From the NCBI RefSeq assembly GCF_002087335.1, contig NZ_MWVJ01000006.1, positions 1 to 64,000 of the forward strand: a DNA stretch of 64,000 bases. The letters run 5' to 3'. The notes below the pieces were generated by a model. The model made no database searches, was not told where the DNA came from, and saw only the letters and a program-made list of their open reading frames with translations. Below, piece by piece: positions 5,914-34,067 of the stretch; position 1 is the stretch's first letter; each line of letters opens with the position of its first letter. Both the position numbers and the translations under genes were made by a program. This DNA comes from Pseudophaeobacter leonis (GTDB lineage Bacteria; Pseudomonadota; Alphaproteobacteria; Rhodobacterales; Rhodobacteraceae).

Positions 5914-5924
5914 ACAAGCGTTTT

Positions 5925-6401: not shown

Positions 6402-6485
6402 ATCTCAGCTCAAACCTCATATGAAAAAATTCCCCCACGCACTTTGCCACACGCGCAACCGCGCCGCGCAAAGCGCGGCGCCACG

Positions 6486-6522
6486 AGAAAAAGCGGTCGC
6501 GGACCCCTCGGGTCCGCGACCG
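6486..6522 (-). terminator. Rho-independent terminator of the fds operon
   Basis: A perfect 13-bp stem (6494-6506 with 6510-6522, loop of 3) is followed on the minus strand by CTTTTTC. It lies 22 bp after the fdsA stop codon. Confidence 0.85.
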
Positions 6523-6544
6523 TTCTGTTTGGTACACGCGTTCC

Positions 6545-9318: not shown

Positions 9319-9321
9319 GGC

Positions 9322-11034: not shown

Positions 11035-11107
11035 GCCTGTCCAGTCGGCATGCCATCAGGAAATCATATCGTCAAAATCAATATACGAAATGCACAATAA
11101 CGAAAGC

Positions 11108-13208: not shown

Positions 13209-13259
13209 GTTCCCCTCCACTGCAACACACCCGCATTCAACAACCAGATAGGTACTAAA

Positions 13260-15113: not shown

Positions 15114-15139
15114 CACCACACATTCAATTCAATACTGCG

Positions 15140-15175
15140 CCGCGCTGCCCATATCGGGTGGCGCGGTTTGCTTTT
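15140..15175 (+). terminator. Rho-independent terminator of the chemoreceptor gene
   Basis: CCGCGC and GCGCGG arms (15140-15145 and 15161-15166), with further pairing inside, are followed by TTTGCTTTT. It lies 27 bp after the stop codon. Confidence 0.7.
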
Positions 15176-15376
15176 GGCCCTCTCGGTCACAACAAACAGC
15201 CACAGACAGAGGCTGACCACTGACGGCTTAGAAATTACCAGATTGCGCACAGGAGCTGCGCTGTGGCACAGGCTTTGCCGCGTGGCACGGGCGCACAAAG
15301 GTTGAGCCCAGCTGCAGGCATTGCTAAAAAAGGTCAACCAGACAAGCCTTTGGTTGCCTCGCGAAAGGACCTCCCC

Positions 15377-16057
15377 ATGCGCATTCAAGACAACTCCCCG
15401 CTGGACACAAACACCAAAAGCCCTCTTCGCATCGACATCGTCTCTGATGTCATGTGCCCCTGGTGCATCATCGGCTACCGCCAGCTCGCCACCGCCCTGG
15501 AGGCAACCGAGACGGACTATGAACTCCACTGGCATCCGTTTGAGCTCAACCCCGAGATGCCCGCCGAGGGGCAGAACATGCGCGAGCATATCGTTGAGAA
15601 ATACGGCGCCACGCCGGAGCAGTCGGAACAAAACCGCAATCAGATGACGGCATTGGGAGAGCAGCTGGGGTTTGAATTCCGCTTTGGCCCCGAGATGCGG
15701 ATGCACAATACCTTTGACACCCATCAGCTGCTGCAGTGGGCCGAAACTCTGGGGCGGATGGATGATCTGAAACAGGCACTCTTTACCGCCCATTTCACCC
15801 ATCAGCGTGACCTCTCGGACCGGGACGTTCTGGCTGAGATCGCTGGCGAAATCGGACTGGATAAAGACGACGCACAGGCTGTGTTGCAGGACCAGCGTTT
15901 TGCCGGTGCAGTGCGCGAGGCGCAGCAGTTCTGGCGCAGTCAAGGCATTCAGGGGGTTCCTGCGGTGATCTTTGACCAAAAGCATCTGGTGAGCGGCGCG
16001 CAGGGCGTTGAGAACTTCACCAGCATTCTGGGTCAGCTGGCGAAATTGCAGGACTGA
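15377..16057 (+). CDS. DsbA-family (FrnE-like) thiol oxidoreductase
   Basis: A 226-residue thioredoxin-fold protein of the 2-hydroxychromene-2-carboxylate isomerase/DsbA-like FrnE group. The strand DIVSDVMCPWCIIGYRQLA holds the CPWC redox motif near residues 27-30, a helical insertion follows, and GVPAVIFDQKHLVSGAQ contains the cis-proline. There is no signal peptide, so it is probably cytoplasmic. I chose the ATG at 15377, preceded by AAAGGAC; the frame is open further upstream but without family similarity. It is convergent with uvrB. Confidence 0.82.
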   Translation: MRIQDNSPLDTNTKSPLRIDIVSDVMCPWCIIGYRQLATALEATETDYELHWHPFELNPEMPAEGQNMREHIVEKYGATPEQSEQNRNQMTALGEQLGFEFRFGPEMRMHNTFDTHQLLQWAETLGRMDDLKQALFTAHFTHQRDLSDRDVLAEIAGEIGLDKDDAQAVLQDQRFAGAVREAQQFWRSQGIQGVPAVIFDQKHLVSGAQGVENFTSILGQLAKLQD

Positions 16058-16065
16058 CCTCTCCG

Positions 16066-16108
16066 ACGTTAAAAACAATACGCCGCACAGAAGACACCCC
16101 TGCGGCGT
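16066..16108 (-). terminator. Terminator after uvrB
   Basis: An 8-bp stem ACGCCGCA/TGCGGCGT (16080-16087 and 16101-16108) is followed on the minus strand by ATTGTTTTTAAC. A second GC-rich dyad GCGGGCCGGC/GCCGGCCCGC (16118-16127 and 16149-16158) lies between it and the uvrB stop. Confidence 0.7.
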
Positions 16109-16172
16109 GACCAAACTGCGGGCCGGCCCAGACCCGCTGTTTGGTCGCGCCGGCCCGCGCCAGGATTTGGCG

Positions 16173-18432
16173 CTATGAGAACTTCTTTTGCGACTTTCCC
16201 CGGTAGGCCCGCGTTCCGGCCTTGCCGGCACTTGAGCGGCCTCGGGATTTCACCGCCGCCTCCGAGGCCTTTTCCACCGCATATTGCCGTGCCATCGGGT
16301 CGTCTGACACTGCCAGATCCACCGCCTCCAGGCGTTTGACCTCGTCGCGCAGGCGGGCGGCTTCCTCAAATTCGAGGTTTTCCGCCGCCTTGCGCATCTC
16401 GTCGCGCAACCCGTTCAGATGCGCCTCAAGATTGGCCCCATGCATCGGCTTGTCGATGCTGGCAGTGACGCGGCTCATATCCACATCGCCCTGATAGAGC
16501 CCGGCCAAAACATCCTCGACGTTCTTTTTCACCGTCGACGGCGTGATGCCGTGTTCAAGATTATAGGCCTTTTGCTTTTCGCGGCGGCGATCGGTTTCAC
16601 CAATGGCGCGCTCCATCGAGCCGGTGATCCTGTCGGCATACATGATGACTCGGCCCTCGGCATTCCGGGCCGCCCGGCCAATGGTCTGCACCAGCGAGGT
16701 CTCGGAGCGCAAGAAACCCTCCTTGTCGGCGTCGAGAATGGCAACCAGACCACATTCGGGAATATCCAGCCCTTCGCGCAAGCAGGTTGATACCGATCAG
16801 CACATCAAAGGCGCCGAGCCGCAGATCGCGCAGGATCTCAATGCGCTCCAGCGTGTCGATGTCGGAATGCATATAGCGCACCTTGATGCCCTGTTCATGC
16901 AGGTATTCCGTGAGATCCTCGGCCATGCGTTTGGTCAGCGTGGTCACAAGCGTGCGCATATCCTGGGCGGTGACCTTGCGGATTTCATCCAGCAAATCAT
17001 CGACCTGCATCTGCACCGGGCGGATCTCGATCACTGGCTCCAACAACCCGGTGGGGCGGATCACCTGCTCGGTAAAGACACCGCCAGCCTGCTCCAGCTC
17101 CCAGGCCGAGGGCGTGGCGGAGACAAAGACCGACTGCGGCCGCATGGCGTCCCATTCCTCGAACTTCAGCGGCCGGTTGTCCATGCAGGACGGCAGGCGA
17201 AAGCCATGTTCGGCCAGGGTGGATTTGCGCCGAAAGTCACCTTTGTACATGCCACCGATCTGCGGCACCGAGACATGGCTTTCATCAGCAAAAACAATCG
17301 CATTGTCGGGGATAAATTCAAACAATGTCGGGGGCGGCTCACCGGGGGCGCGCCCGGTCAGATAGCGTGAGTAGTTCTCGATACCGTTGCAATAGCCGGT
17401 GGCTTCCAGCATCTCGATGTCGAAATTACAGCGCTGCTCCAGCCGCTGTGCCTCAAGCAGTTTTCCCTCGCTCACGAACTGATCCAGCCGCTTGCGCAGC
17501 TCTTCCTTGATCGAGATCACCGCCTGGGTCAACGTCGGCTTTGGCGTCACATAGTGGGAATTCGCATAGACGCGGATCTGGTCAAACGCGCCGGTGCGCT
17601 CACCGGTCAGGGGGTCAAATTCCGTAATACTCTCAAGCTCTTCGCCAAAGAATGACAGTTTCCAGGCGCGATCCTCAAGGTGGGCGGGAAAGATCTCGAG
17701 CGTGTCGCCCCGCACCCGGAACGAGCCGCGCTGAAAGGCCTGATCGTTACGTTTGTACTGCTGGCCCACAAGATCTGTCATGATCTGGCGCTGGTCGTAG
17801 TTTTCGCCAACCTTCAGATCCTGCTTCATCGCCGAATAGGTCTCAACCGAGCCGATACCGTAAATGCAGGACACCGAGGCGATGATGATCACATCGTCGC
17901 GCTCAAGCAGGGAGCGGGTGGCCGAGTGGCGCATCCGGTCGATCTGCTCGTTGATCTGGCTTTCTTTCTCGATAAATGTGTCAGAGCGCGCCACATAGGC
18001 TTCGGGCTGGTAGTAGTCATAAAACGAGACAAAATACTCGACCGAATTGTCCGGAAAGAAGCCCTTGAATTCGCCATAAAGCTGCGCCGCCAGGGTTTTG
18101 TTGGGGGCCAGAATGATGGCCGGGCGCTGGGTCTCTGCGATCACCTTGGCCATGGTAAAGGTCTTACCAGTGCCTGTGGCCCCAAGCAAAACCTGATTGC
18201 GTTCGCCCTCGTTCACCCCCTGGCTGAGTTCCGCAATCGCGGTGGGCTGATCCCCCGCCGGAGAGAACTCGGTCTGCATGACAAAGGCCTTGCCGCCCTC
18301 CAGTTTGGGCCGCTGCACAGGATCACGGTCAGCCATGCGCACAGGGCCCATGTCAGGCTGCGTCTCTGGTGCCGCTTCAGCCCCGGCCTGGGTAAGTTTG
18401 GCTTCGGATTTGTCTGAATGGGCGTAGGGCAT
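16173..18432 (-). CDS. uvrB: Excinuclease ABC subunit B (frameshifted)
   Basis: UvrB helicase of nucleotide excision repair, about 752 residues. Seen: Walker A GATGTGKT, the damage-binding hairpin region [20 protein letters not shown] as motif II, helicase motif [10 protein letters not shown], and a C-terminal UVR domain ([20 protein letters not shown]). It loads onto damage with UvrA and recruits UvrC. The frame breaks near 16785: [10 protein letters not shown] is followed by [20 protein letters not shown] in the next frame, and one extra T explains it. The start at 18432 has AGGAG upstream; an N-terminal extension of about 45 residues precedes the usual start of the fold. A gene of this kind is unlikely to be a true pseudogene. 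Confidence 0.95.
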
Positions 18433-18560
18433 TCGGCTCTCCTGTGAGTCGTGCTAATTTTGGTCTGTTTTTGTTCTTGTTCAAGGGGCATTCGTACGGT
18501 TTCAGGAGCTGGATCTGTTGCAGCCCTGCAAAACCTGTTGAATGCGCTGGATTTGTCACC

Positions 18561-18591
18561 TTGTGGCACAGGGGCAATCGGCGCATATATA
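18561..18591 (+). promoter_or_regulatory. Candidate sigma-70-type promoter for the NDUFS4-like gene
   Basis: TTGTGG at 18561-18566 and CATATA at 18584-18589 are spaced by 17 bp, about 30 bp upstream of the start codon in the divergent uvrB gap. Confidence 0.35.
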
Positions 18592-18619
18592 GGACACGTC
18601 GAGTCACGAGGAGAGCCCC

Positions 18620-18931
18620 ATGCGAGCGCGGATTTACCGGCCAGCCCGAAACGCCATGACTTCTGGAATGGGCAAGACCCGCAAATGGGTTTTGGACTAC
18701 GCTCAGGCCAGCGCGCGTGAAGTGGACCCTCTGATGGGCTGGACCTCGTCTTCTGATACCCAAAGCCAGGTCCGCCTGCGTTTTGAGAGCAAAGAAGCCG
18801 CATTGGAATATGCGCAGGATCACGGCATTGACGCCGAAGTGGTTGAGCCAAAGCCGCGCAAAGCCAATCTGCGCCACGGTGGCTATGGCGAGAATTTCGC
18901 CACCAACCGGCGCGTGCCCTGGACCCATTGA
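18620..18931 (+). CDS. NDUFS4-like complex I accessory subunit
   Basis: A 103-residue protein of the ETC complex I subunit family (Pfam name ETC_C1_NDUFS4), found in mitochondria and alphaproteobacteria. It starts [20 protein letters not shown] and has the core pattern [19 protein letters not shown] and [16 protein letters not shown], ending [12 protein letters not shown]. It stabilises the NADH module of respiratory complex I. CGAGGAGAG gives a good ribosome site. It is divergent from uvrB, and the next gene starts 6 bp after its stop. Confidence 0.9.
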
Positions 18932-18937
18932 GGCAAA

Positions 18938-19429
18938 TTGAGCCAAACTGCCGCAATAGAAATCCGCGCGGCGGACCCCGCCTGCCCTACGATTGCGCCT
19001 CTGATTGAGGCCAGTCAGGAGCACGGCGCAGATCAGAGCACCGCAGACAGCGATCACACCTTAGGTGTTGCGGAGCTATGCAAACCCGGCGTGCTGTTTT
19101 TTGCGGCCTATCAGGGTGAGCAGCCCCTGGGATGCGGCGCGATAAAAACCCTGCGAGACGGCAGCGCCGAAGTGAAATCCGTCTTTGTTAGCACGCAGGC
19201 GCGCGGACAGGGGCTGGCCCGCCAGATAATGGACCACCTGGCAGCGGTCGCTGGCGCAAAAGGGTTTGCGGCCCTGGTTCTGGAAACGGGATCGCCACTC
19301 TGCCCGGGCTATGACGCCGCACGCAGCCTCTATGAGAGACTGGGGTATCAGTACTGCCCGCCCTTTGAAGGCTACAAAACAGACCCGCTGAGCGTCTTCA
19401 TGCGCCTCCCCCTGACGCCCGCCACCTAA
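18938..19429 (+). CDS. GNAT-family N-acetyltransferase
   Basis: A 163-residue acetyltransferase with the GNAT acetyl-CoA motif VKSVFVSTQARGQGLARQIM (Q/R-x-x-G-x-G/A) and the C-terminal LYERLGYQYCPPFEGYK stretch. The start is TTG at 18938, with GAGG just upstream overlapping the stop of the NDUFS4-like gene, so the two are probably translationally coupled. The substrate is unknown. Confidence 0.8.
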   Translation: MSQTAAIEIRAADPACPTIAPLIEASQEHGADQSTADSDHTLGVAELCKPGVLFFAAYQGEQPLGCGAIKTLRDGSAEVKSVFVSTQARGQGLARQIMDHLAAVAGAKGFAALVLETGSPLCPGYDAARSLYERLGYQYCPPFEGYKTDPLSVFMRLPLTPAT

Positions 19430-19588
19430 ACCCGAGACGGCACCGGAACCGGGGCCAGGGGCCGCCGCGCCCAATAGGCCAGCCTGCACCGGGTCCTGCA
19501 TTTGGCCAATCTGCAAAGAGTTTCAAAACTGCGGCTTCACCCCGTTGACAAACCTTGAGCTGTATTGGAAACGTGAGGGTGAGAATGC

Positions 19589-19666
19589 GGGCCGTTAGCT
19601 CAGCTGGATTAGAGCAGGGAACTTCTAATTCTCAGGTCGGGGGTTCGAGTCCTCCACGGCTCGCCA
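19589..19666 (+). tRNA. tRNA-Arg (anticodon UCU)
   Basis: A full cloverleaf is visible: acceptor GGGCCGT pairs with ACGGCTC, the D stem is GCTC/GAGC, and the anticodon stem GGGAA/TTCTC encloses loop CTTCTAA (anticodon TCT). The T stem is GGGGG/CCTCC with TTCGAGT loop bases, then discriminator G and an encoded CCA. It decodes AGA. An integrase remnant points into its 3' side, so it is a plausible island attachment site. Confidence 0.95.
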
Positions 19667-19676
19667 TTCCTCCCCA

Positions 19677-19829
19677 TTATCCTTGTTCTTTCATGAGCTT
19701 ATAGATGGCATTGGCGAACTTCCCCGTTAGGTCCGTCACCTTTTTGCTGCCATTTGGGCGCGCGATCAGCGTTTCCCTTGCAGAATTTGCCAACGCTTCG
19801 CGACCTGCTGCTTCTGTGTAGGGGTGCAC
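19677..19829 (-). pseudogene. C-terminal remnant of a tyrosine integrase
   Basis: Starting 11 bp after the tRNA-Arg CCA, the minus strand encodes about 50 residues ending at a stop at 19677-19679. They include VHPYTEAAGREALANSARE and, further on, LIARPNGSKKVTDLTGKFAN. The YTEAAGREALANSA pattern matches the segment after the catalytic tyrosine in phage-type tyrosine recombinases of this group. Upstream the frame is closed, and no RHR catalytic part is found. Position and orientation at a tRNA 3' end are classic for an island integrase. I read it as the scar of an old integration. Confidence 0.55.
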
Positions 19830-19934
19830 CGCCCTTTGCCTGCTTCAACATGCCTGCGTCAACACAGCGATGACCTGTGCGTCGCTAAACTCTTCGCGCT
19901 TTATTCAATATCTTCTCAGCTCCCTTACCGGCTA

Positions 19935-20651
19935 TCAGGTTTTGAAAAAAGCAGACAACCGGGTCGTAAAGAAATGAGTCAACCAGACCTCACCAAAGGC
20001 ACCGTCCATATGTGTGTTGTCTGCAGAATTGCTTTTCTCGTCACTCCCCCCCAAAACCGAAGATAATTTCGTAACTCCCCACGAGTACTCCGGCGCGGTA
20101 TTGCGTCCATTTACAATCGTTACCAGTGGCTGCGCTACCATTTCGGCGTTGTATTTGCTGTAGTGCAACTGATTTAAGATTTGTATTCCATCCAGGTACT
20201 CTTTGGACACATTGCGGTCTCGTATTTTCTTGGCCGCGAGCAGAGGACTGTGAGCGATGAAAATAGGGACTTCGGAAACCTGCCTCAAACAAGACAGAAC
20301 ATGTTGTGCTGGCGTATCGCAGGTCAAATCATCGATCACTGTTTCAACACAACTTCTGGAGTAGAAAGTATCACCAGGCCAGTAGTTTCTACTTCTTGCG
20401 CCATAGATCAGAAAACTATCATAGCTCCCTATATCCATACGTTCTTTGCCATGAGTCAGACTAAATGAGTTTCGTGCTTTACTTTGTTTTGACGTTAGAT
20501 GATGGCCATCGACGCAGACGGATTGCAGGCCCTGGTTTCCTGCCTGAGCAAAGAAACTCACATCAATGCCCGGCCAGTCCCCGCTAATTTTGTCCCAGCC
20601 CTGCTTTACCGATGCGACATGACTGTTTCCAAGAATGCAGATCCTATGCAT
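19935..20651 (-). CDS. SGNH-like protein paired with a GSCFA protein
   Basis: A 238-residue protein starting MHRICILGNSHVASVKQGW. The GNSH block at residues 8-11 resembles block I of SGNH/GDSL-type hydrolases, but I cannot place all catalytic residues. There is no signal peptide or membrane segment. Its ATG overlaps the end of the upstream GSCFA gene by 8 bp (ATGCATAG), so the two are translated together. The base composition is AT-richer than its neighbours, which suggests acquisition by transfer next to tRNA-Arg. Similar pairs occur near polysaccharide genes in roseobacters, so a role in modifying surface sugars is possible. Confidence 0.6.
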   Translation of the reverse strand: MHRICILGNSHVASVKQGWDKISGDWPGIDVSFFAQAGNQGLQSVCVDGHHLTSKQSKARNSFSLTHGKERMDIGSYDSFLIYGARSRNYWPGDTFYSRSCVETVIDDLTCDTPAQHVLSCLRQVSEVPIFIAHSPLLAAKKIRDRNVSKEYLDGIQILNQLHYSKYNAEMVAQPLVTIVNGRNTAPEYSWGVTKLSSVLGGSDEKSNSADNTHMDGAFGEVWLTHFFTTRLSAFFKT

Positions 20652-21693
20652 TTTGAAACGCCCCCAAGATCTCTTCCTCGCAGACAATTTCCAGATTATC
20701 GCCATCAGGGGCCTTCTTTTCGGCAGAAGGACTGAGTGGGCCGAATTTATCTTCCTGACACCGGAAGAAATTATCCATCACGAAATTCACCCCAACCGGG
20801 TTTACCTGGCGTTGATTAGGCTCAAAGAAGGCCCCTTTAAAAATTGGGCTGCTGATAATTTCATAAGACGGGAAATAATCAACATTGGGTCGGTTAGCGC
20901 TGACCTGATCTGCGACAGCGCGCAGAACTGACTTGGAGGCCATAGTTGCAACCGCTACATGCCGGTCTGTCATCGTGGCGGCCAAGGGCACCGGAGAAAC
21001 AGTAAGTATGAATTTTATTTTTTGGTTTGCGCCGCGAATAAGGTCAATTGCCCGAATTAGGTTATTCAGGACCTTCTGAAATTGCTGATTTTGAAAAATA
21101 TGCTGGCTTTCATCAAAAACGCCCCCAACGGTTCCCGGGCACATTGGATATTCATAAGAGAGGTCTTTGTTTATCCAGCTTTCAGTCAGACCAAGGGTAA
21201 AGACAAAGAAATCAGCCTCCTTTATGCCCTCTGCAAACGAACGGATGGTTTGTGATCGCGACTGATAAAGCTCTTCAGGTGTTTCAAATCCGTCGGGTTC
21301 AATCCTAGGACGGAACGGATCAAGATACCGGTCCCCATGCGTCCAGACCTCGCCAGGTGCTTCGACCCCAGCCAACGCCCACTCTGTCCACTGCCGCAAC
21401 AGCGACGTTGTGTAGATATTGGCGGTTCGGGTGGAGAATATACCATAGTTGAACCGCGTGGCATTTGCTGCGCTCATACCCCTTGGCGCTTGTTCCGGAC
21501 GCAACCAGTTAAACCCCCGCGCGTCTAATGCCCGCCCTATGTGTTGCGCAAAACATGAGCCATACGTCAGGATCTTGTGCTTCTTCTGAATCCGAAACTT
21601 TGGGTTCCAAATCTCATCAACATCAAACATGCTGCGGTTGGCAACAGCCGTCTTCCAAAAGGCTGATTGTGGCAAGTCTTCATATGGATTCAT
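20644..21693 (-). CDS. GSCFA-domain protein
   Basis: A 349-residue protein with the diagnostic GSCFA motif at residues 45-49 (KILTYGSCFAQHIGRAL) and the conserved FTLGLTESWINKD segment of the family. The start at 21693 follows GAGGAGAGC; the frame is open further upstream but without similarity. The family has an SGNH-like fold and unproven biochemistry, probably an esterase or acyltransferase acting on glycans. It is the first gene of a two-gene unit in the AT-richer islet between tRNA-Arg and the sulfonate operon. Confidence 0.8.
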   Translation of the reverse strand: MNPYEDLPQSAFWKTAVANRSMFDVDEIWNPKFRIQKKHKILTYGSCFAQHIGRALDARGFNWLRPEQAPRGMSAANATRFNYGIFSTRTANIYTTSLLRQWTEWALAGVEAPGEVWTHGDRYLDPFRPRIEPDGFETPEELYQSRSQTIRSFAEGIKEADFFVFTLGLTESWINKDLSYEYPMCPGTVGGVFDESQHIFQNQQFQKVLNNLIRAIDLIRGANQKIKFILTVSPVPLAATMTDRHVAVATMASKSVLRAVADQVSANRPNVDYFPSYEIISSPIFKGAFFEPNQRQVNPVGVNFVMDNFFRCQEDKFGPLSPSAEKKAPDGDNLEIVCEEEILGAFQNA

Positions 21694-21988
21694 TGCAAGC
21701 TCTCCTCTGTTGGGATCTCGGGGGGGATCAATGTCGCACTCCCCCGTCACCCAGACCGTTCAGATGTAGAATTCATCCCTGTTTCTTTCTGGTTGTGATG
21801 TCGCGGTCAAGACACGCAAAGAAGAGTATTTACGGAGCTCATAAGCCTAAGGATGTCTGCGGACGCCTGTTTGAAAATGTCGCTAGGCAAATGCCACGAA
21901 TGCAAATTCTGCGATTTACAACATGGTCGCCCTTGGCGCAGCTCATCTGCCAGAACGGCTCCTTCGGGCTGGAACCGGTCACCAGCCC
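21694..21988. other. Intergenic region at the islet boundary
   Basis: I see no gene here. It separates the GSCFA gene start from the end of the sulfonate operon. I found no second copy of the tRNA 3' end that would mark the other edge of an island. Confidence 0.5.
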
Positions 21989-23113
21989 TCAGGAAGCATC
22001 GCTAGCCTTTGATACTTCGGGGCTGTCCAGGGTCGCCAGCCCCATTTGTGCCATGGCGTTGCTCATCTCTGTGCTCAGAACCTGCCACAGGCTCTCCAGC
22101 CCTTTTTCACCAGCCGCGGCTATGGCAAATTGCAGGATGCGGCCGAAGAAAACAAAATCCGCACCATTCAGGAGCGCTTTCAACGCGTCCTCCCCCGAGC
22201 GCAGCCCGCTGTCGTACAGCAGCGGATAGTCAGGCCCAACGGCTGCGCGGATCTGAGGCAACACGCAAAAAGGCGCCGGGGCGCTCTCGAATTGGCGCGC
22301 GCCATGGCTCGACACCTGAATGGCATCCACCCCGGCCTGTTTCAGCGCGACAGCATCCTCGGCGTCCAGCACACCCTTGACCACAAGACGCCCCGGCCAG
22401 ATCTGTCGCAGCTGCGCCAGCGTGTCCCAGGTGGCTTTTGCCCGGCTCTCGCTGCGATCAAACGCGTAGCCCTCTTTGTCAAAATTGGCCATCTGGGGCT
22501 TGCCATGCCACAGCGCCGCCAGCGACCAGCGCGGGTGCAGGGCAAAATCAATGAACTGCCGGGGACCGATCCTGAAGGGCATCTTGAAGCCGTGCCGCAG
22601 CTCGCGCGGGCGGCGCCCGACCTCGGGCACATCCACGGTCAGAACCAGTGTCTCATAGCCTGCGGCGCGGGCCCGTTCGACCAGCTTAAACGTCCCGCTG
22701 CCATCGCCGCTGAAATACAGCTGAAACCAGGCATGGCCCTCGGCTGTGTCGATAAGTTGCTCCATCGGTGACGAGGCCACGGTGGACACCCCAAGCGGCA
22801 CCCTGTAGCGGGCAGCCAGCCGGGCCAGCATCAGATCTGCGCCGGGGGCCGACAGATTGCACATGCCCATGGGGGCAATGCCAAAGGGGCGGTCCGCCAT
22901 CTGGCCAAACAGGGGTTTTGCCAGCGAGCGCGTGCTCACATCCCGCAGAATTCTGGGCCGCAACTCCATCGCATCAAGCGCGGCACGATTGCGCGCGACA
23001 CCGGTCTCCTCCCCCGCCGCCCCGTCGATATAGTCAAAGACCATCCACGGCAGCTGCCGCCGCGCCAGGCGACGGGCATCTGCGGCACTGTGGATGGTCT
23101 TTGCGTAGTTCAC
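21989..23113 (-). CDS. FMN-dependent alpha-hydroxy-acid dehydrogenase, probable sulfolactate oxidation
   Basis: An intact 374-residue member of the lactate dehydrogenase (LldD)/glycolate oxidase family. The FMN/active-site features are present: PFGIAPMG (77-84), Q131 and Y133, K246, and the catalytic SSHGARQ (H270, R273), where most relatives have SNHGGRQ. Its ATG overlaps the comE stop by 4 bp (ATGA), which ties it to the sulfopyruvate decarboxylase. I infer that it oxidises sulfolactate, made by HpsN, to sulfopyruvate, the ComDE substrate. Lactate or another hydroxy acid cannot be excluded from sequence. It is the last gene of the operon. Confidence 0.85.
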   Translation of the reverse strand: MNYAKTIHSAADARRLARRQLPWMVFDYIDGAAGEETGVARNRAALDAMELRPRILRDVSTRSLAKPLFGQMADRPFGIAPMGMCNLSAPGADLMLARLAARYRVPLGVSTVASSPMEQLIDTAEGHAWFQLYFSGDGSGTFKLVERARAAGYETLVLTVDVPEVGRRPRELRHGFKMPFRIGPRQFIDFALHPRWSLAALWHGKPQMANFDKEGYAFDRSESRAKATWDTLAQLRQIWPGRLVVKGVLDAEDAVALKQAGVDAIQVSSHGARQFESAPAPFCVLPQIRAAVGPDYPLLYDSGLRSGEDALKALLNGADFVFFGRILQFAIAAAGEKGLESLWQVLSTEMSNAMAQMGLATLDSPEVSKASDAS

Positions 23114-23664
23114 GCCTGCACGGCCTTCATAAAGCGATCCCGGATCACCACCGGATCCATGGTGATCACCGGCATCTTTGCATTGCCGCTGTCACATTTG
23201 ACCACGAGGATATGCATCTTGCCGCTGTCCAGCGCCTTTTGCAGCACCGGGCCCGTGTCGACATCCCTGCACTCAATCACATTCTCACAGCCGCAGGCCT
23301 CGGCGACCGCTGCAAGCGAGGTTTTGCGGCCCGCATAGGTGGGCTGATCCCCGGTTGAGCCGTAAGAGCCATTGTCAATGATCATCAGAATGTAGTTGTC
23401 GGTGACATTGTTGGCGATGGTTGGCAATGTGCCCATATTGGTCAGGATCGAGCCATCACCATCAATCACAATCACCGGTTTGGGCTGCACCAGCGCCAGA
23501 CCAAATCCGATGCTTGAGGCAAGCCCCATGGTGCCAAGCATGTAAAAGTTGCTGGGTTGGTCGTCGATGGCATGCAGCTCCTGGCTGGGAATACCGATAT
23601 TGCAGACCACCAGCTGATCCCGCAGGATCGGCGCTATCTCTTTCAGAATTTCAGAACGGATCAT
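23110..23664 (-). CDS. comE: Sulfopyruvate decarboxylase beta subunit
   Basis: A 184-residue thiamine-pyrophosphate-binding half enzyme starting MIRSEILKEIAPIL. It carries the TPP/Mg motif IDGDGSILTNMG and then MIIDNGSYGSTGD, as in ComE of coenzyme M synthesis and the sulfolactate pathway. With ComD it decarboxylates sulfopyruvate to sulfoacetaldehyde. It overlaps comD by 4 bp and the FMN dehydrogenase by 4 bp, so all three are coupled. Phosphonopyruvate decarboxylase is a related alternative, but the HpsN context favours sulfopyruvate. Confidence 0.85.
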   Translation of the reverse strand: MIRSEILKEIAPILRDQLVVCNIGIPSQELHAIDDQPSNFYMLGTMGLASSIGFGLALVQPKPVIVIDGDGSILTNMGTLPTIANNVTDNYILMIIDNGSYGSTGDQPTYAGRKTSLAAVAEACGCENVIECRDVDTGPVLQKALDSGKMHILVVKCDSGNAKMPVITMDPVVIRDRFMKAVQA

Positions 23665-24167
23665 TGGTCGCCATAGCCTCCCCAAAAATTGGCATCCGTC
23701 AGGATGGCCACCGGTTTGTTGCACATAAAGGTATATTTCAGGATCATATCCAGCTCTTCCACATCCGACTGTTTGTGGAAGTGATAGGTCGGGATATTCA
23801 TCTGCGCCAGCAAGGCCTTGGTGTGGATCGCCATCTCAACCTGACAGGCGACAGGTTCACGCAGCTCACCCCGATAAGAGATCAGCATGGGCAGCGGCAT
23901 CCGGTAGTATTGCGTCAGTGTGGCCAGCGTGTTGATCGTCACCCCGATTGCGGTGTTTTGCATGATGATGGCGGGGCGCTTGCCGCCCATCCAGGCCCCG
24001 GCACAGAGCCCCATGCCCTCGTCTTCCTTGTTCGAGGGGATATGGAATATTTCGTCGCGGATATCGACCTCCTCAATCACGCCAGCCAACTGCTTGCAGG
24101 GGACGGTGGTGACAAAGGAGATATCGTTGGCAACAAGATCATCTACGATCCTCTTGTCGATGCTCAT
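23661..24167 (-). CDS. comD: Sulfopyruvate decarboxylase alpha subunit
   Basis: A 168-residue TPP-enzyme PYR-domain half, starting MSIDKRIVDDLVANDISFV, with PSNKEDEGMGLCAGAWMGGK providing the conserved glutamate that activates the cofactor. It pairs with ComE. Two ATGs compete (24176 and 24167); AAAGG lies 1 bp before the first and 10 bp before the second, so I prefer 24167. It follows uspA after an 88-bp gap. Confidence 0.85.
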   Translation of the reverse strand: MSIDKRIVDDLVANDISFVTTVPCKQLAGVIEEVDIRDEIFHIPSNKEDEGMGLCAGAWMGGKRPAIIMQNTAIGVTINTLATLTQYYRMPLPMLISYRGELREPVACQVEMAIHTKALLAQMNIPTYHFHKQSDVEELDMILKYTFMCNKPVAILTDANFWGGYGDQ

Positions 24168-24255
24168 TTCAGACATGCCTTTCAATTGATGTGCAAAACT
24201 GCACGGGATTACAAAACCGGGATACAGAATAGTGTAACAGTACAGGTAAACGGGA

Positions 24256-24666
24256 TCACGCGCTGCGGTGCACATGCACAGCGCAGGCTGCATGGCGCAC
24301 AACACGCGAGGCGGTTGAGCCGAGGAAATAGTCGCTCAGCCCCGGCCGGTGCGAGCCAATAACAATACAGTCCGTCGCATTTGCCGCCGCAAAATCAATG
24401 ATGCTGCGCGCCGTGTGCCCCTTTATCAGCCGTGAGTGGACATCCGGCAAAGCTTCCAGCCTGGCAGCAAGCATCTTTCCAGCCCGCTCAAACCCTTCCT
24501 GCACAGCCTCCTTGTCGAGAAAGGCGCTGACAGAGCCCTGAGGCGCCTCATAGACATGCAGTGCTGTGATCTCTCCGCCGGGCGCACAGAGAGCGCGCGC
24601 CACCTTGAGGGTATGTTCCGAGATGCCATGATCGAGCGCCATGGGAACGAGGATTTTTTGATACAT
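24256..24666 (-). CDS. Universal stress protein (UspA family) in the sulfonate operon
   Basis: A 136-residue single UspA domain starting MYQKILVPMALDHGISEHTL. The ATP-binding pattern G-x2-G-x9-G-(S/T) appears as GSHRPGLSDYFLGSTAS. It is inserted between the MDR dehydrogenase and comD, with a 107-bp gap before it and an 88-bp gap after. A close paralogue lies at 33520-33927. TRAP-associated UspA proteins that bind ATP and affect uptake are known, so a transport-linked role is a reasonable inference. Confidence 0.85.
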   Translation of the reverse strand: MYQKILVPMALDHGISEHTLKVARALCAPGGEITALHVYEAPQGSVSAFLDKEAVQEGFERAGKMLAARLEALPDVHSRLIKGHTARSIIDFAAANATDCIVIGSHRPGLSDYFLGSTASRVVRHAACAVHVHRSA

Positions 24667-24773
24667 GGGCTGTCTCCAGTGCGGCTGTTTGAGGGCGCAT
24701 TTTTCGAGGGCAGGTCTATACGAGGGCGATTTCAAAGGTCTGTCAGGGTCAGGGCGAAAAACAACAGCCCGCT

Positions 24774-25753
24774 CTATCCGGGCCAGGGGGTCAGAATGAT
24801 CTTGGGCGCCGCCACACGGCCCGCCCGCAGGTCCTGAAAGGCCTGCGCCCCCTGCGACAGAGGCCGTGTCTCAAACCAGTCGAGAGGGCCTAGCTGCCCC
24901 GCAAAAATCGCTTCTGCGGTGTCGCGAAAATCCTGTGCTGTATAGGTATAGGTGCCGATAAAGGTGATTTCCTGCAGCGTCATGCGCCGGATATCCAGAC
25001 CGCCCATGTCTTCGCCCAGCCCCACATGCGCAATCACCCCGCCCGGCTGCGCACAGCGCGAGGCAATGGCCCGGGTGGCGGCATAGCCCACCGCATCAAT
25101 CACAATGGAATAGGCGCCAAAAGCGGCCGACACGACCTCCTGGTGGCAGTGATCCTGCAAATGTGCCCGCCGGATGTCATTTGGCTCGACAATGGTGACA
25201 GTCTCTACCGCCATCGCCTTAAGCGCCAGCGCCGCCGCAAGGCCGATTGCGCCGCCGCCAATGACCAAAGCCTCCCGCGGCATCATCGGATGCAGTGCCT
25301 CCAGCGCCAATCTCACCGCATGCCAGCTCACCGCCAGCGGCTCTGCCAGTGCTGCCTTGGTCAGCGGGATGTCTGCCGGAACCTCCACAAGATTGCTGTC
25401 CGGCATGGTGATATACTGCGCAAAGGCCCCGGCACGCGGCGGCATGGATATGATCTGGCGCGCGCCACAAAGATTTTCGCGCCGGGCCCGACAGGCCATG
25501 CATTTTCCACATGTCACCAAGGGGTTGACCGTGACACGCCTGCCATCCTTTGGCCCGCCGACAATGGTGCCTGCGGCCTCGTGCCCCAGGATCAGGGGCG
25601 CCGGTCGGCGCGCGTCATGGCCAAGATAGGCATGCATGTCAGAGCCACAGATCCCAACCGCGTCGACACGGATCAGCTGCGCGCCCGCGACCGTAGCCAC
25701 ATCGGCCACATCGCGATACTCCAGCTGTTCAACACCCTCATACACAAGCGCTT

Positions 25754-25757
<4 letters not shown>
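24774..25757 (-). CDS. Zinc alcohol dehydrogenase (MDR), HpsO/HpsP-type
   Basis: A 327-residue medium-chain dehydrogenase starting MKALVYEGVEQLEYRDVADV. Catalytic zinc ligands are seen in GICGSDMHAYLGHD and LGHEAAGTIV, structural-zinc cysteines in TCGKCMACRARRENLC, and the Rossmann GGGAIGL later. Its ATG overlaps the SDR gene by 4 bp. Cupriavidus pinatubonensis DHPS catabolism uses two 2-dehydrogenases (HpsO, HpsP) to interconvert DHPS enantiomers so that HpsN can act. This protein and the adjacent SDR fit that pair, but I cannot say which is which. Confidence 0.8.
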
Positions 25758-27815
<2,058 letters not shown>

Positions 27816-27827
27816 TTCTGCGTGTTC

Positions 27828-29171
27828 CTATTGGTATATTTCGGGAAGCAAGGTGGTCGAGACTGCGGGAACATAAGCAATCAGCAGCACAACAATCAGC
27901 ATCGTCAAAACAAAGGGCACAGCCCGCGCGGCAATCTTGAGAATAGATTCTCCGGTAATTCCGGACACCACAAACAGGTTGAGCCCAAGCGGCGGTGTAA
28001 TGAACCCCACGCCCAGTGCCGTGATCATCATGATACAGAACTGAATCTCATTCATGCCAATGTTATCCGCAAGCGGCTTTAGGATCGGGGCCAGGATGAC
28101 GATATTTGGCGTTGTTTCCATCACACAGCCCGCCGCGATCAGAATGCCGATCATCAATAGGATGAGCACATAGGGGTCGTCCGTCAGAGCGGTAATTGAG
28201 GTCACAAAACCCTGCGGCACCCCCATGATTGCCAGCGCTTCGGCCAGAGGCGCGGAAAAGGCGATGATCGGCAGGATGACGCCATTCACCTTGGCAGAGC
28301 TGACCAGCATCGCCGGAAAATCCGCCAGCGACAGCGTGCGCAGCAAAAAGCCCAGGAGGATGGTCACAACAACCGCCGTCGCGCCGGCCTCGGTTGGGGT
28401 CAGCCGCCCGGAGAAGATGCCGTAAAAGATGATGCCCGGCACGATAAAGGCATACCAGCCTGATTTCAGCGCCCGCCCCAGATTGGCGGACCACTCAGTC
28501 AGGCTCATCATGCCGCCGCCTTCATAGTTATAAAGTCGGTTCACGATAAGGTTGGTGACAAGGATCGAGATCAGAATTGCCAGACCGGGGATCAGGGCTG
28601 CCAAAAACAAGGTTGAGGCGGAAATTCCCAGCACCAGCCCGATGATGATATAGGCAATAGAAGGCGGGATCAGGATGCCGGTGCAGGCGCCGGCCGCGAC
28701 CAGCGCGCAGGCATAGGGGCGCGGATAGCCGCTCTCGACCAGCCGGGCGATGGTCATGCGGCCAACCGCCGCCGCCCCCGCCGCGTCCGAGCCCGAAATG
28801 GCGGCGAACATACCGCAGACAAGCACCGTGGCAGAGCCAAAGCCGCCCTTGGCAAAACAGGTCAGCGCCTCGGCCACATCGAGGAACTTGCGCGAAAGCC
28901 CGGTGCGCACCAGCACGTCACCCGTCAGAATGAACAGCGGCACAGCCGTCAGCGCAAAGGCAGCAATGCCAGAAAACAGGCTCTCGCCAACCAGGCTGAG
29001 CGGCAGATCTCCGGACATGACAAGCATGGTGATTGCCGCCGCGCCAATCGCGGCCCAGACCGGCACCGCCAGCGCAATGAGCGCCACAAACAGAATGACC
29101 GGCAGATAGAAATCCCATCCCAGCTCAACGGTTTGGTTTAAAGTGGTCCACAGCATTTCAAACCCCCTCAA
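27828..29171 (-). CDS. TRAP transporter large membrane subunit (DctM type)
   Basis: An intact 447-residue protein with about 12 membrane segments of the DctM family (IPPSIAYIIIGLVLGISA and GVGFITPPLGLNLFVVSG are typical). It forms the sodium-driven channel part of a tripartite ATP-independent periplasmic transporter with the adjacent DctQ and DctP proteins. It overlaps the DctQ gene by 4 bp, and hpsN starts 12 bp after it. It would be part of HpsKLM, the DHPS importer. Confidence 0.9.
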   Translation of the reverse strand: MRGFEMLWTTLNQTVELGWDFYLPVILFVALIALAVPVWAAIGAAAITMLVMSGDLPLSLVGESLFSGIAAFALTAVPLFILTGDVLVRTGLSRKFLDVAEALTCFAKGGFGSATVLVCGMFAAISGSDAAGAAAVGRMTIARLVESGYPRPYACALVAAGACTGILIPPSIAYIIIGLVLGISASTLFLAALIPGLAILISILVTNLIVNRLYNYEGGGMMSLTEWSANLGRALKSGWYAFIVPGIIFYGIFSGRLTPTEAGATAVVVTILLGFLLRTLSLADFPAMLVSSAKVNGVILPIIAFSAPLAEALAIMGVPQGFVTSITALTDDPYVLILLMIGILIAAGCVMETTPNIVILAPILKPLADNIGMNEIQFCIMMITALGVGFITPPLGLNLFVVSGITGESILKIAARAVPFVLTMLIVVLLIAYVPAVSTTLLPEIYQ

Positions 29172-29692
29172 TCAAACAATTTGTCGACCTCAAAGACGGG
29201 CGTGCCGTCCCGAAGGGATTTGAGGTCGCGTTGAAACGACTGGATCAGGCGCCAGATCATCAGGGAAAATCCCAGTGGCACGGCCATCAGGAACCAGACC
29301 TTGGAGATGCGCAGCCCATCGGTGACAGAGCCAAATTTTGCCGAGACCAGAACCGTCTCAAAGGACCAAAAGAGCGCAACAAGGGCGACCGCAAACATCA
29401 GCAGATCGCCAAAGATATAGAGCGCCGCCTTGGGCCGGGGGCCGATATAATGCATCAGCACATCAATGCGGATATGGGCGCGTTCCTTGACGGCCGCCGC
29501 AGCACCGATCCAGGCCAGATAGATAAACGCGTAGCGCACGATCTCTTCGCCCCAGATCGACGAATAAGAGAACAGCTCGCGCCGCAGCACTTCCACAGCC
29601 ATGGTGATCACCAGCAGCACATAGAAGGTCAGCAGCAGCCATCGCTCTGCGTTCTGGTCTATTTGTTTCAACACCCCCATCTCTCGCCCCAC
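29168..29692 (-). CDS. TRAP transporter small membrane subunit (DctQ type)
   Basis: A 174-residue protein with four predicted membrane segments (LLLTFYVLLVITMAVEVLRR; YAFIYLAWIGAAAAV; YIFGDLLMFAVALVALFW; VWFLMAVPLGFSLMIW). The RxHIRIDVL motif after the second segment is typical of DctQ. It partners the DctM subunit, with a 4-bp overlap. Confidence 0.88.
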   Translation of the reverse strand: MGREMGVLKQIDQNAERWLLLTFYVLLVITMAVEVLRRELFSYSSIWGEEIVRYAFIYLAWIGAAAAVKERAHIRIDVLMHYIGPRPKAALYIFGDLLMFAVALVALFWSFETVLVSAKFGSVTDGLRISKVWFLMAVPLGFSLMIWRLIQSFQRDLKSLRDGTPVFEVDKLFD

Positions 29693-29782
29693 CTTCTGGC
29701 CATAGCTATTGGTTCAGCTATTCGGCTGTTCAAATCGACTGCCTTCAAAGGACAGGCACCAATGCGGCGCCTGCCCTATGGT

Positions 29783-30931
29783 TCAGGCGTCGTGGACGTA
29801 GTATTTGCCTTGGGTGCCTGCGGCCTCTTCCAGCTTGGCAAAGGCCTGCATAGAGCCGGCCAGCTCGGTCTTGAAGGTCTCCCATTCCGGGCGCTGAAAG
29901 CCGCCTGCGGCCTGCCATTCCGCAAGCTGATCCGCGCTAAGGGAATGAAACTGCACCCCCGCCTTGGCCAGTTCCGCCATGGCATAGGCACGGGCCGAGG
30001 GCACCTTGGACAGGTTCTGGTGCGCCGTCATCTCGGCCCCCCACATGATGCCATCCTGCACATCCGCTGGCATCGTGTTGAACCACTCAAGATTGCAGGA
30101 ATAAACCTGCGCGTCCGGCACCGCCTGGGTAAAGGTCACATGGCTCAGGATGTCTTTAAAGCCAAAGACATAGAGCGCCCCAACGGAAGGATCCAATGCA
30201 TCGGCCACCCCCTGTTTGATCGCCGAGGGCGTCTCACCCCAGGGGACGGGGGTCGGGTTGGCCCCAACCATGCGGTAGTATTGCTGCAACATTTTCGAGC
30301 CGGGAACCCGGACCTTTACCCCAGACAGATCACCGGGGCTGAGCACGGCGCCAGCGCCGCCTTTGCGCACCGCAACAACACGGGGGTCAATATTGACATA
30401 AAACAGCGCCTTAAAACCTGCCGCCTCCACCTTTGGATGCACCTCAGCCTTCCAATGATCCGAATTCACCAGATTGGTGAACCGCTGATTAGAGCCACAG
30501 AGATAGGGCATGTTGATCAGATCTACCGTTGAGGCAAAGGGGGCGAAATTGGACAGCGAGTGCTGCGCCGCCTGAATGGTGCCGCCCTGCACCTTTTGCA
30601 CCAGCGCCCCACCGGCCCCAAGCTGGCCACCGGGCGCAAGCTTTACATAGACCTTGCCATTGGTGGCGTTCTGAATGTTTTCTTTCAGGTCCAGCTGCAT
30701 GATCGGATAGCTGCGCGACGCCCCCATCACATAGGCCGTGGCAATCGTCATCACATGATCTGCGGCTTTTTCCCGGGCGCGCTCTTCATTTGCCGTTTGC
30801 GCCACGGCCTCGCCAGACCACAGCATACCCCCGGCCCCCGCGACCATCGCCGCCGTAAAGGCACCGGCGGTGCTGAGCTTAAGGAAATTACGGCGCTCAG
30901 CCGAGGCGAGCTCATTGCGTGTATTTGTCAT
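29783..30931 (-). CDS. TRAP transporter substrate-binding protein (DctP type)
   Basis: A 382-residue periplasmic binding protein. The N-terminus SAERRNFLKLSTAGAFTAA is a twin-arginine signal with cleavage near AVAQ, about residue 44. Family features follow: LAPGGQLGAGGALVQKVQGG, GVKVRVPGSKMLQQYY with the conserved arginine that binds a carboxylate or sulfonate, and PTPVPWGETPSAIKQGVADA. It should capture DHPS or a related sulfonate. It lies 90 bp before the DctQ gene. Confidence 0.88.
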   Translation of the reverse strand: MTNTRNELASAERRNFLKLSTAGAFTAAMVAGAGGMLWSGEAVAQTANEERAREKAADHVMTIATAYVMGASRSYPIMQLDLKENIQNATNGKVYVKLAPGGQLGAGGALVQKVQGGTIQAAQHSLSNFAPFASTVDLINMPYLCGSNQRFTNLVNSDHWKAEVHPKVEAAGFKALFYVNIDPRVVAVRKGGAGAVLSPGDLSGVKVRVPGSKMLQQYYRMVGANPTPVPWGETPSAIKQGVADALDPSVGALYVFGFKDILSHVTFTQAVPDAQVYSCNLEWFNTMPADVQDGIMWGAEMTAHQNLSKVPSARAYAMAELAKAGVQFHSLSADQLAEWQAAGGFQRPEWETFKTELAGSMQAFAKLEEAAGTQGKYYVHDA

Positions 30932-30961
30932 GGTTGTCCTCCCAGTGGAGCTATTCGCTGC

Positions 30962-31147
30962 TTAGCTGCCGCTCTTTTTTTGGCGGTCAGCTTCCTTTTT
31001 CAGAATGGCAACGACAAAGAGGATCGTCGCCGCAAGCAGAACCAACATTTCACCTGTGTCTCCCAACACAGCACCGCCCGTGAACGCACCCAAAGCAACA
31101 TTTAAAAAATACAGAGCAAAAACGATGACAGCGGCAGCGAGGAACAT
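30962..31147 (-). CDS. Small two-segment membrane protein leading the sulfonate operon
   Basis: A 61-residue protein starting MFLAAAVIVFALYFLNVALG, with a second hydrophobic segment MLVLLAATILFVVAIL and a basic tail KKEADRQKKSGS. I use the ATG at 31147; a longer frame to 31183 would overlap the LacI operator. It is the first gene after the promoter, 30 bp upstream of the TRAP binding-protein gene. I do not recognise the family; an accessory role for the transporter is only a guess from position. Confidence 0.6.
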   Translation of the reverse strand: MFLAAAVIVFALYFLNVALGAFTGGAVLGDTGEMLVLLAATILFVVAILKKEADRQKKSGS

Positions 31148-31181: not shown

Positions 31182-31199
31182 AATGTAAGCGCTTACATT
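31182..31199. promoter_or_regulatory. LacI-family operator O1
   Basis: AATGTAAGCGCTTACATT is a perfect 18-bp palindrome with the AAGCGCTT core typical of LacI/GalR regulators. It lies between the sulfonate operon and the divergent lacI-type gene. Confidence 0.85.
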
Positions 31200-31202
31200 A
31201 TC

Positions 31203-31220
31203 AATGCAAGCGCTTACATT
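31203..31220. promoter_or_regulatory. LacI-family operator O2
   Basis: AATGCAAGCGCTTACATT differs from O1 by one base. The centres are 21 bp apart, two helical turns, so two dimers could bind the same DNA face and repress both divergent transcripts. Confidence 0.85.
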
Positions 31221-31282
31221 AGTGGCTTTCCCCCGGCTTTTCCTGTGATAGAATGAAGAAAAACTAAAGCAAGAGATTGAGA

Positions 31283-32380
31283 ATGCCAAATCCAGAGGCC
31301 ATTCCGACATTGGGCGATGTTGCCAAGATGGCTGGCGTATCAAGCGCCACGGTTTCGCGCTGTCTGAACGCGCCTGATCGCGTCGTCGAGGCAACACGGC
31401 AGCGGGTTCAGGAGGCGATAGAGGCGCTTGGCTACACGCCAAACTTTGCCGCACGCGTGATGGCGGCCAAGAGCACCATGACAATTGGCGCTATCATCCC
31501 AACGATGGAAAACGCGATCTTTGCGCGGGGGGTGCAGGCCTTTCAGGAAGAGTTGCACCGGCAGGGCTATACGCTGCTGGTTGCCAGTTCTGCCTACCGG
31601 CCCGATATTGAGAACGAACAGATCCGGGCGCTGGTTGCGCGCGGCGCGGACGGGCTTTTGTTGATCGGGCATGATCGTGAGGCAGAAATCTATGACTATC
31701 TGGCGCGGCAGAAAGTGCCCGCTTTGGCAGCATGGAGCCATAGTGAGGCGGGTCAAATTCCCTCAATCGGGTTTGACAACGCGCAGGCCATGTTCAGCCT
31801 GACGCAAGAGGTGATTAAGCTGGGGCACACAAAAATCGCGATGATTTCAGGCGTCACGCAGGGCAATGACCGGGCCCGCCTGCGCCTGCAGGGCTGCCGC
31901 GATGCGATGGAGGCCAATGGCCTGGATGCTGCAAAGCTCCCCGTCATAGAAGCCGCCTATGAAATCGAACATGGTGCTGCGGCCTTTGCAAAGCTGATGG
32001 CGCGCAGCCCGCGCCCCAGCGTGGTCATGTGCGGCAACGACGTTCTGGCCACCGGCGCGCTGCTCTGTGCGCAGCGGTTGGGACTGGCGGTGCCCGAGGA
32101 TGTCTCAATCACCGGTTTCGACGATATCGAGCTGGCCCGGGTCACCAATCCGGCCCTGACCACCGTACATGTGCCGCACCGCGAGATGGGAGGTAAAGCC
32201 GCCCTTGAGCTTGTTGATATGGTGAAGAACAAAAGCCCCGGGCGCTCAGCCAAATTGCCAACACATATCACATGGCGTCAGTCTCTTGGCCCAGTTGGTG
32301 ACCCTGTTGGAGGTCCTGTTGTTGGCCCAGTTGCTGGCCCAGTTGGCGACAGCGCCAGGCCAGCATCAGAAGCCTCGTGA
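31283..32380 (+). CDS. LacI-family regulator of the sulfonate operon
   Basis: A 365-residue LacI/GalR protein. The HTH is TLGDVAKMAGVSSATVSRCL, with hinge region NFAARVMAAKSTMTIGAIIP, then a periplasmic-binding-protein-like effector domain (ITGFDDIELARVTNPALTTV). The start is the ATG at 31283; a TTG 6 bp upstream is also possible. It is divergent from the sulfonate operon with two operators between them, so it most likely represses that operon until a sulfonate inducer binds. The C-terminus carries a repetitive tail GPVGDPVGGPVVGPVAGPVG not expected in the family, encoded by imperfect tandem repeats. Confidence 0.88.
   Translation: MPNPEAIPTLGDVAKMAGVSSATVSRCLNAPDRVVEATRQRVQEAIEALGYTPNFAARVMAAKSTMTIGAIIPTMENAIFARGVQAFQEELHRQGYTLLVASSAYRPDIENEQIRALVARGADGLLLIGHDREAEIYDYLARQKVPALAAWSHSEAGQIPSIGFDNAQAMFSLTQEVIKLGHTKIAMISGVTQGNDRARLRLQGCRDAMEANGLDAAKLPVIEAAYEIEHGAAAFAKLMARSPRPSVVMCGNDVLATGALLCAQRLGLAVPEDVSITGFDDIELARVTNPALTTVHVPHREMGGKAALELVDMVKNKSPGRSAKLPTHITWRQSLGPVGDPVGGPVVGPVAGPVGDSARPASEAS
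32286..32350. repeat. Imperfect tandem repeats encoding a GPV-rich tail
   Basis: Degenerate copies of GGCCCAGTTG and related units follow one another at the 3' end of the LacI-type gene and encode repeated Gly-Pro-Val triplets. Confidence 0.75.
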
Positions 32381-33519: not shown

Positions 33520-33927
33520 TCAGCGGACCACGTGGACAGCGCAGGGGGCATGGCGCACCACCTGGCTCGCGGTAGAGCCCAGCAGCAAATCCTGCATTCC
33601 GGGGCGATGCGACGCGATGATCACCAGGTCCGGCTTGTTCTGCTCGGCCCAATCCAGGATCGACCGTCCAGAGTGCCCCTCAATAACAACCCCAGTGGCA
33701 TTTGGCAGCGTCCTTGCAAGGCCTTCCAACTCGCTCTCCAGCGCCTCACGAGCCTGCGCCATATATTCAACTGGCATATATGACATCGCATAGGCCGGGA
33801 CCTGTTCAACCACATGCAACAGAGTGATCTTGGCCTCCGGTGTTGCCAGCAATTGTGCAAGTTTCAACGGCGCGGATATATCACGGTCCGGGTCAAAGGA
33901 AATTGGCACGACAATATTATGGTACAT
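33520..33927 (-). CDS. Universal stress protein (UspA family)
   Basis: A 135-residue UspA domain starting MYHNIVVPISFDPDRDISAP, with ATP-binding motif ASHRPGMQDLLLGSTAS. It is of the same subfamily as the UspA in the sulfonate operon (24256-24666), with matching C-terminal ends VVRHA-CAVHV. The ATG at 33927 is preceded by AGGAGGC. It appears monocistronic. Confidence 0.88.
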   Translation of the reverse strand: MYHNIVVPISFDPDRDISAPLKLAQLLATPEAKITLLHVVEQVPAYAMSYMPVEYMAQAREALESELEGLARTLPNATGVVIEGHSGRSILDWAEQNKPDLVIIASHRPGMQDLLLGSTASQVVRHAPCAVHVVR

Positions 33928-34067
33928 TTGAAGCCTCCTAAGCTGTTCGCGTAGGCCCAGCATGTACCCTCACAGCTGCACCGACATTGATCCAGGTCAG
34001 GGTCTTTACCCTTTTGGCCACAGAAGTTTTGCGCAACAGATACGCGAAGGCTTTCACAATACTGGCG

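Follow-up and report, generated by a model that had tools for sequence, protein, structure and literature searches.

An hps operon with a predicted sulfopyruvate branch in Pseudophaeobacter leonis, and the small membrane protein that accompanies its importer

Dihydroxypropanesulfonate (DHPS) is a major currency of carbon and sulfur passed from algae to bacteria. We analysed positions 1 to 64,000 of contig NZ_MWVJ01000006.1 of Pseudophaeobacter leonis (this stretch is called the window below; the assembly comprises 4,821,592 bases and is 92% complete), and found eleven genes on one strand that we read as a Roseobacter-type hps operon of the Xsc branch, which would import DHPS and degrade it via sulfolactate, sulfopyruvate and the sulfopyruvate decarboxylase ComDE. 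We put the probability of this reading at about 0.9. The family searches and open reading frames (ORFs) bear out the order, the strand and the coordinates (21989 to 31147) of the eleven genes as given in the original prediction, which missed the divergent regulator gene hpsR, the palindromes in front of the operon, the breaks in the hpsN frame and the pattern of occurrence, across genomes, of the small membrane protein that the first gene encodes. The features are as follows.

31277 to 32380, plus strand: hpsR-like gene for a LacI-family regulator, divergent from the operon (Pfam LacI and Peripla_BP_3)
31184 to 31197, TGTAAGCGCTTACA, and 31205 to 31218, TGCAAGCGCTTACA, no strand: two predicted HpsR operators, palindromes 21 bp apart
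30962 to 31147, minus strand: 61-residue two-helix membrane protein, candidate fourth component of the tripartite ATP-independent periplasmic (TRAP) importer, judged from gene neighbourhoods
29783 to 30931, minus strand: hpsK, TRAP substrate-binding protein, DctP (PF03480, 146 bits)
29168 to 29692, minus strand: hpsL, TRAP small permease, DctQ (PF04290, 105 bits)
27828 to 29171, minus strand: hpsM, TRAP large permease, DctM (TIGR00786, 304.9 bits, above cut-off)
26508 to 27815, minus strand: hpsN, DHPS-3-dehydrogenase of the HisD superfamily (TIGR00069, in pieces; frame broken by two compensating indels)
25754 to 26515, minus strand: hpsO, short-chain dehydrogenase/reductase (SDR families; position and identity to relatives)
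24774 to 25757, minus strand: hpsP, zinc-dependent medium-chain dehydrogenase/reductase (PF08240 and PF00107)
24256 to 24666, minus strand: hpsQ, UspA-family protein (PF00582)
23661 to 24176, minus strand: comD, sulfopyruvate decarboxylase alpha subunit (TIGR03845, 147.1 bits, cut-off 147.95)
23110 to 23664, minus strand: comE, sulfopyruvate decarboxylase beta subunit (TIGR03846, 236 bits, cut-off 221.5)
21989 to 23113, minus strand: slcD-like gene for a flavin mononucleotide (FMN)-dependent 2-hydroxyacid dehydrogenase (PF01070, 388.6 bits)

Predicted pathway

The P, Q and M subunits of a TRAP importer were all found, and HpsKLM, probably together with the 61-residue hairpin protein, would take up DHPS. 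HpsN would then oxidise R-DHPS to R-sulfolactate, and HpsO and HpsP, whose genes adjoin hpsN, would convert R- and S-DHPS, respectively, to sulfolactaldehyde. Sulfolactate would be oxidised to sulfopyruvate by SlcD, an FMN enzyme of the L-2-hydroxyacid type, sulfopyruvate decarboxylated to sulfoacetaldehyde by ComDE, and sulfoacetaldehyde cleaved to acetyl phosphate and sulfite by Xsc, which is encoded on another contig. These substrates are assigned by analogy with published relatives.

ComE scores above its family cut-off, and the xsc gene that the original prediction had proposed to look for is present on contig C95 (927 bits, cut-off 676). In an 11-sequence alignment including the window, seven residues of the SlcD-like protein (Y28, Y133, D161, R168, K246, H270 and R273), counterparts of the residues that bind FMN and substrate in glycolate oxidase, were invariant. 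The protein is labelled SlcD-like from its position and family. Because CH2SO3 ranks above COOH in the naming rules, R-sulfolactate would, by our reasoning, have the geometry of L-lactate, and the L-lactate type is the usual substrate type of the FMN-dependent 2-hydroxyacid dehydrogenases.

Downstream of xsc on C95 (positions 4000 to 23999) lie genes for a TauE-type exporter, ackA, a YeiH-type exporter and a soeA-like gene, an assemblage resembling a sulfoacetaldehyde-sulfite module; acetyl phosphate and sulfite could therefore be handled there.

The original prediction was right to favour the route through sulfopyruvate and ComDE, which is still the best reading, but its suggestion that this departs from known hps clusters did not hold: the pathway class is already described in passages of PMC11382572, and we dropped the idea of an unusual sulfopyruvate branch. 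Its mention of racemisation follows an older model of the two dehydrogenases that has been superseded: a passage of PMC11131964 reports HpsO and HpsP to be R- and S-specific 3-dehydrogenases, respectively, yielding sulfolactaldehyde.

Several points count against our reading of the operon. ComD falls 0.85 bits short of its cut-off (147.1 versus 147.95), and hpsN lacks an open frame in the assembly. A stand-alone pta, another gene named for searching in the original prediction, was not confirmed among three PTA_PTB matches, one of which lies in an ORF of the malic-enzyme type. Finally, the failure to find the alternative enzymes is provisional because the assembly is 92% complete: the sole PF04295 match for suyB was a galactarate/altronate-type dehydratase beside uxuA, leaving suyAB not found, and the sole TIGR01275 match for cuyA (24 bits) was TrpB.

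The hpsN reading frame

One of these points concerns hpsN, in which the frame that runs from 27815 to about 27504 is taken up again from 27212 to 26508, with the middle part in another frame; the TIGR00069 search returned three pieces in two frames. Compared with ten relatives, the window is one base short after 27503 and has one base extra at 27213, and the frame is open over at least 439 codons in all ten. If the two indels are genuine, hpsN is a pseudogene in a decaying operon, and DHPS would be used only via HpsO, HpsP and a sulfolactaldehyde dehydrogenase. We regard this as improbable, for the indels compensate each other, the remaining genes of the operon are open, and other genes of the assembly look broken in the same manner: uvrB in the window is split over two frames (16597 to 18432 and 16173 to 16781, with the junction at model position 503), and on C95 about the first 110 model residues are missing from the ackA ORF, while the soeA-like gene is divided between two ORFs. 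Errors of sequencing or assembly are thus the likelier cause of the hpsN breaks. The deduced HpsN also keeps the catalytic 'EH' and, 34 residues on, a 'D' within 'GDKATG', the same spacing as in CpHpsN, for which E318, H319 and D352 are given as catalytic residues in a passage of PMC11382572.

Distribution of the operon

We surveyed 295 genomes of the family of P. leonis, one per genus, and found comE (E ≤1e-50) in 68. In those genomes, the genome of P. leonis excluded, 72 comE places were examined for neighbours within about 9.5 kb. hpsN was present in 45 places, slcD in 33 and both in 30, an hpsR-like gene stood on the opposite strand in 33, and all tested genes (hpsR included, the small gene lying outside the test) were found together in 16; as some contigs are short, these counts are lower bounds. 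In 27 places, some of them on short contigs, comDE occurred with no hpsN within that distance, pointing to other settings of sulfopyruvate decarboxylase.

A relative of SlcD was found in 331 stretches of a named collection, and in the best 80 of the 331, comE was present in 71 loci and hpsN in 62, with all twelve genes, hpsR included, in identical order and orientation in 44. Three loci (L143, L163 and L187) carry the same operon without comDE, and the twelve-gene set is also present, and annotated, on plasmid unnamed4 of Leisingera caerulea S122 (NZ_CP081074.1).

These data bear on a second alternative, in which free sulfolactate, and not DHPS, is the compound that the operon handles and hpsNOP are accessory. 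SlcD and ComDE indeed act on sulfolactate and sulfopyruvate, and hpsN was not found nearby in 3 of the 33 comE places with slcD. Nevertheless, hpsNOP sit in the middle of the operon, and its first genes include HpsKLM, whose equivalent in R. pomeroyi is needed for DHPS use, an hpsK mutant being impaired in growth on DHPS and in its drawdown according to passages of PMC10130141; we consider this alternative a shade less probable than decay. We can practically dismiss the notion that the HisD-like gene makes histidine within a general organic-acid operon, because, although among named families the C-terminal hpsN piece matches TIGR00069 (hisD) best, that piece is about 37% identical to the HisD encoded by a complete gene on contig C52 (515 bits; the original prediction had named the absence of a true hisD elsewhere as the case in which this gene would serve histidine synthesis), carries GDKATG where the genomic HisD has GDYVGG, and shares the operon with ComE, whose family is that of sulfopyruvate decarboxylase.

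The DHPS operon is an ordinary further member of a described type, and its unexplained part is the small membrane protein.

A small membrane protein before hpsK

No Pfam or NCBIfam family matched the 61-residue protein. Its gene is coding, with a mean proportion of nonsynonymous differences (pN) of 0.19 against a near-saturated synonymous proportion (pS) of 0.70 over 1,176 pairs. An AlphaFold model gave a two-helix hairpin (mean predicted local distance difference test score 75, predicted template modelling score 0.40), a modest model of use for topology only; an N in helix 1 and an E in helix 2 were invariant in a 12-row alignment. Databases label the protein 'hypothetical protein' or, in one Rhodovulum record, 'MFS_1'.

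A profile of the protein matched 58 of the 295 family genomes, one copy each (the match in G270 has an in-frame TAG), and all 58 genes sit 25 to 115 bp upstream of hpsK on the same strand. HpsK itself (E ≤1e-100) is present in 60 of the 295. The remaining two HpsK genomes, G179 and G087, have a diverged two-helix ORF at that position, with profile E values of 0.0017 and 0.025, the weakest two of 146 hits in the loci searched; G087 is a weak case altogether, as its HpsK match reaches only 58% identity and, within the 10 kb covered, nothing matched HpsL or HpsM above 50 bits. Among 398 genomes sampled from the phylum, family members included, the protein was found in ten, one copy each, and the two of these outside the family likewise have it before hpsKLM. 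hpsKLM came next in all 40 stretches anchored on the small gene (38 from the family and two others; in L281 the small protein was recognised by profile only).

Whether the protein goes with the importer or with the enzymes can be judged from 59 named loci in which hpsN is preceded by 4.5 kb of sequence or more. The small protein was present in 48 of 48 with HpsK and missing in 10 of 11 without; in the exception, L160, HpsK falls into two hits and the small ORF lacks its start codon. Five of the ten loci with neither were inspected more closely: in L134 (1673 to 5367), hpsN is directly preceded by a different TRAP system with a fused QM permease, and neither HpsKLM nor the small protein is there; L161 and L180 have other transporter genes beyond hpsR; and the scanned genes of L124 and L192 are non-transporters. 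Conversely, in G123 and G183 a unit of hpsR, the small gene and hpsKLM stands apart from hpsN and comDE. This arrangement, together with the co-occurrence with HpsK, indicates that the small protein follows the importer and not the enzymes.

Plasmids gave a similar picture, the small gene being next to hpsK in 18 of 19 plasmid records with HpsK, a partly redundant set with ten Leisingera of two species and three Rhodovulum. In the nineteenth, from the archaeon Haloarcula pelagica (NZ_CP126163.1), a 93-residue ORF directly follows the large permease gene; it contains two hydrophobic stretches and resembles the small protein in its N / E-x-FLILL / EA pattern. A widened profile found this ORF at E 0.021 among 50,863 ORF fragments, with the next noise at 6.9. 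Because tblastn gave no relatives of it in the plasmid collection, an archaeal relative of the small protein is suggestive only. On the same plasmid (134591 to 147544), suyAB-like genes and an hpsN-like hisD lie together with genes for an HpsK-like TRAP system and a putative sulfate exporter, apparently an archaeal DHPS cluster.

Judged from gene neighbourhoods, the small protein appears to be a fourth, as yet unnamed part of the DHPS importer. Most simply it would be a subunit accessory to the HpsLM permease, although it may instead be a regulator or an assembly factor. It is tempting to go further and speculate that importers of the HpsKLM type are in general four-part, with a hairpin of about 60 residues as an obligate partner of HpsLM and a diverged relative after the haloarchaeal large permease; we rate this broader proposal at a little under an even chance. 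A general TRAP partner was rejected, since every matched genome, 58 in the family survey and 10 in the phylum sample, has a single copy, and the fused-QM TRAP system of L134 at hpsN, with no small protein, also contradicts it. Among the matches listed in open-licence literature, no title or abstract dealt with a fourth component of a DHPS TRAP importer or with HpsR operators. If the small protein does belong to the importer, a transporter class that textbooks describe as three-part has an overlooked member.

Regulator and operator-like palindromes

With up to two mismatches, TGTAAGCGCTTACA and TGCAAGCGCTTACA are the only two sites of their pattern in the 4,821,592-base assembly, against 17 for a reversed control pattern, and the chance expectation in the window is 0.09 sites on average. 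At up to three mismatches, at least one site was found in all 48 named loci with hpsR and either hpsK or the small gene, paired at a distance of 21 to 24 bp in 46 of them; the rest of these loci, which total 957 kb, holds 11 such sites. At up to two mismatches, the palindrome was present in 35 of 36 loci anchored on the small gene that have hpsR (none in L252), with no site elsewhere, and in 33 of 33 comE-anchored loci with hpsR, with three sites elsewhere; the latter count includes 15 of 15 stretches without hpsK. These sets of loci overlap.

The palindromes at 31184 to 31218 are very probably operators of HpsR, and this LacI-type protein probably acts as a repressor of the operon from the two sites between the divergent genes. 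An HpsR regulon beyond the operon was rejected, as the genome-wide search at up to two mismatches gave no further site. The predicted operator pair would offer a ready marker for DHPS regulation.

Gene layout and neighbouring genes

The eleven genes would be read as one transcript. hpsN and hpsO overlap by 8 nucleotides (nt), and hpsO and hpsP, comD and comE, and comE and slcD by 4 nt each, in line with the short overlaps at several junctions noted in the original prediction. That the largest gaps flank the uspA-family gene holds only approximately: the gap between hpsP and hpsQ (107 nt, 24667 to 24773) is the largest, but that between hpsK and hpsL (90 nt, given an hpsL start at 29692) exceeds that between hpsQ and comD (79 nt, 24177 to 24255). 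A promoter scan returned none for the strand of the operon. At 24785 to 24765, 3' of hpsP, there is a terminator-like hairpin, to which we give no weight, as 14 such sites were found with 9.3 ± 2.8 expected.

Near hpsR, a second UspA-family gene occupies 33520 to 33963, and two ORFs on the operon strand lie just downstream of slcD (19935 to 21750), one of the GSCFA family and the other without a Pfam match.

Comparison with known systems

Operons of this type were reported to be co-expressed with DHPS (passages of PMC11131964), and a 2024 paper (PMC11382572) distinguishes three DHPS routes, one of which comprises hpsNOP, SlcD, ComDE and Xsc. In its passages on these routes, Ruegeria sp. ANG-S4, Jannaschia sp. 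CCS1 and Granulosicoccus have hpsNOP, slcD, comDE and a genomic xsc, as does P. leonis, and the pathway logic does not differ; the same passages mention neither the small protein nor the operators.

Ruegeria pomeroyi DSS-3 (hpsRKLMNOPQ-slcD, SPO0590 to SPO0598) shares the order from hpsR to hpsQ followed by slcD, whose product (SPO0598) is given as a membrane-bound sulfolactate dehydrogenase, but the passages of PMC4334477 list no comDE between hpsQ and slcD, unlike in P. leonis. PMC4334477 assigns suyAB to this species, and PMC11382572 the CuyA route. The hpsRNOUP-suyAB cluster of Cupriavidus pinatubonensis shares hpsN, hpsO and hpsP with the operon described here, and differs in having the major facilitator superfamily importer HpsU and the lyase SuyAB in place of the TRAP importer, SlcD and ComDE (passages of PMC11382572). 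The genome of P. leonis adds one more clear candidate for the Xsc branch, which alone changes little; a close counterpart, on plasmid unnamed4 of L. caerulea S122, has the same twelve genes in the same order and differs in its plasmid location.

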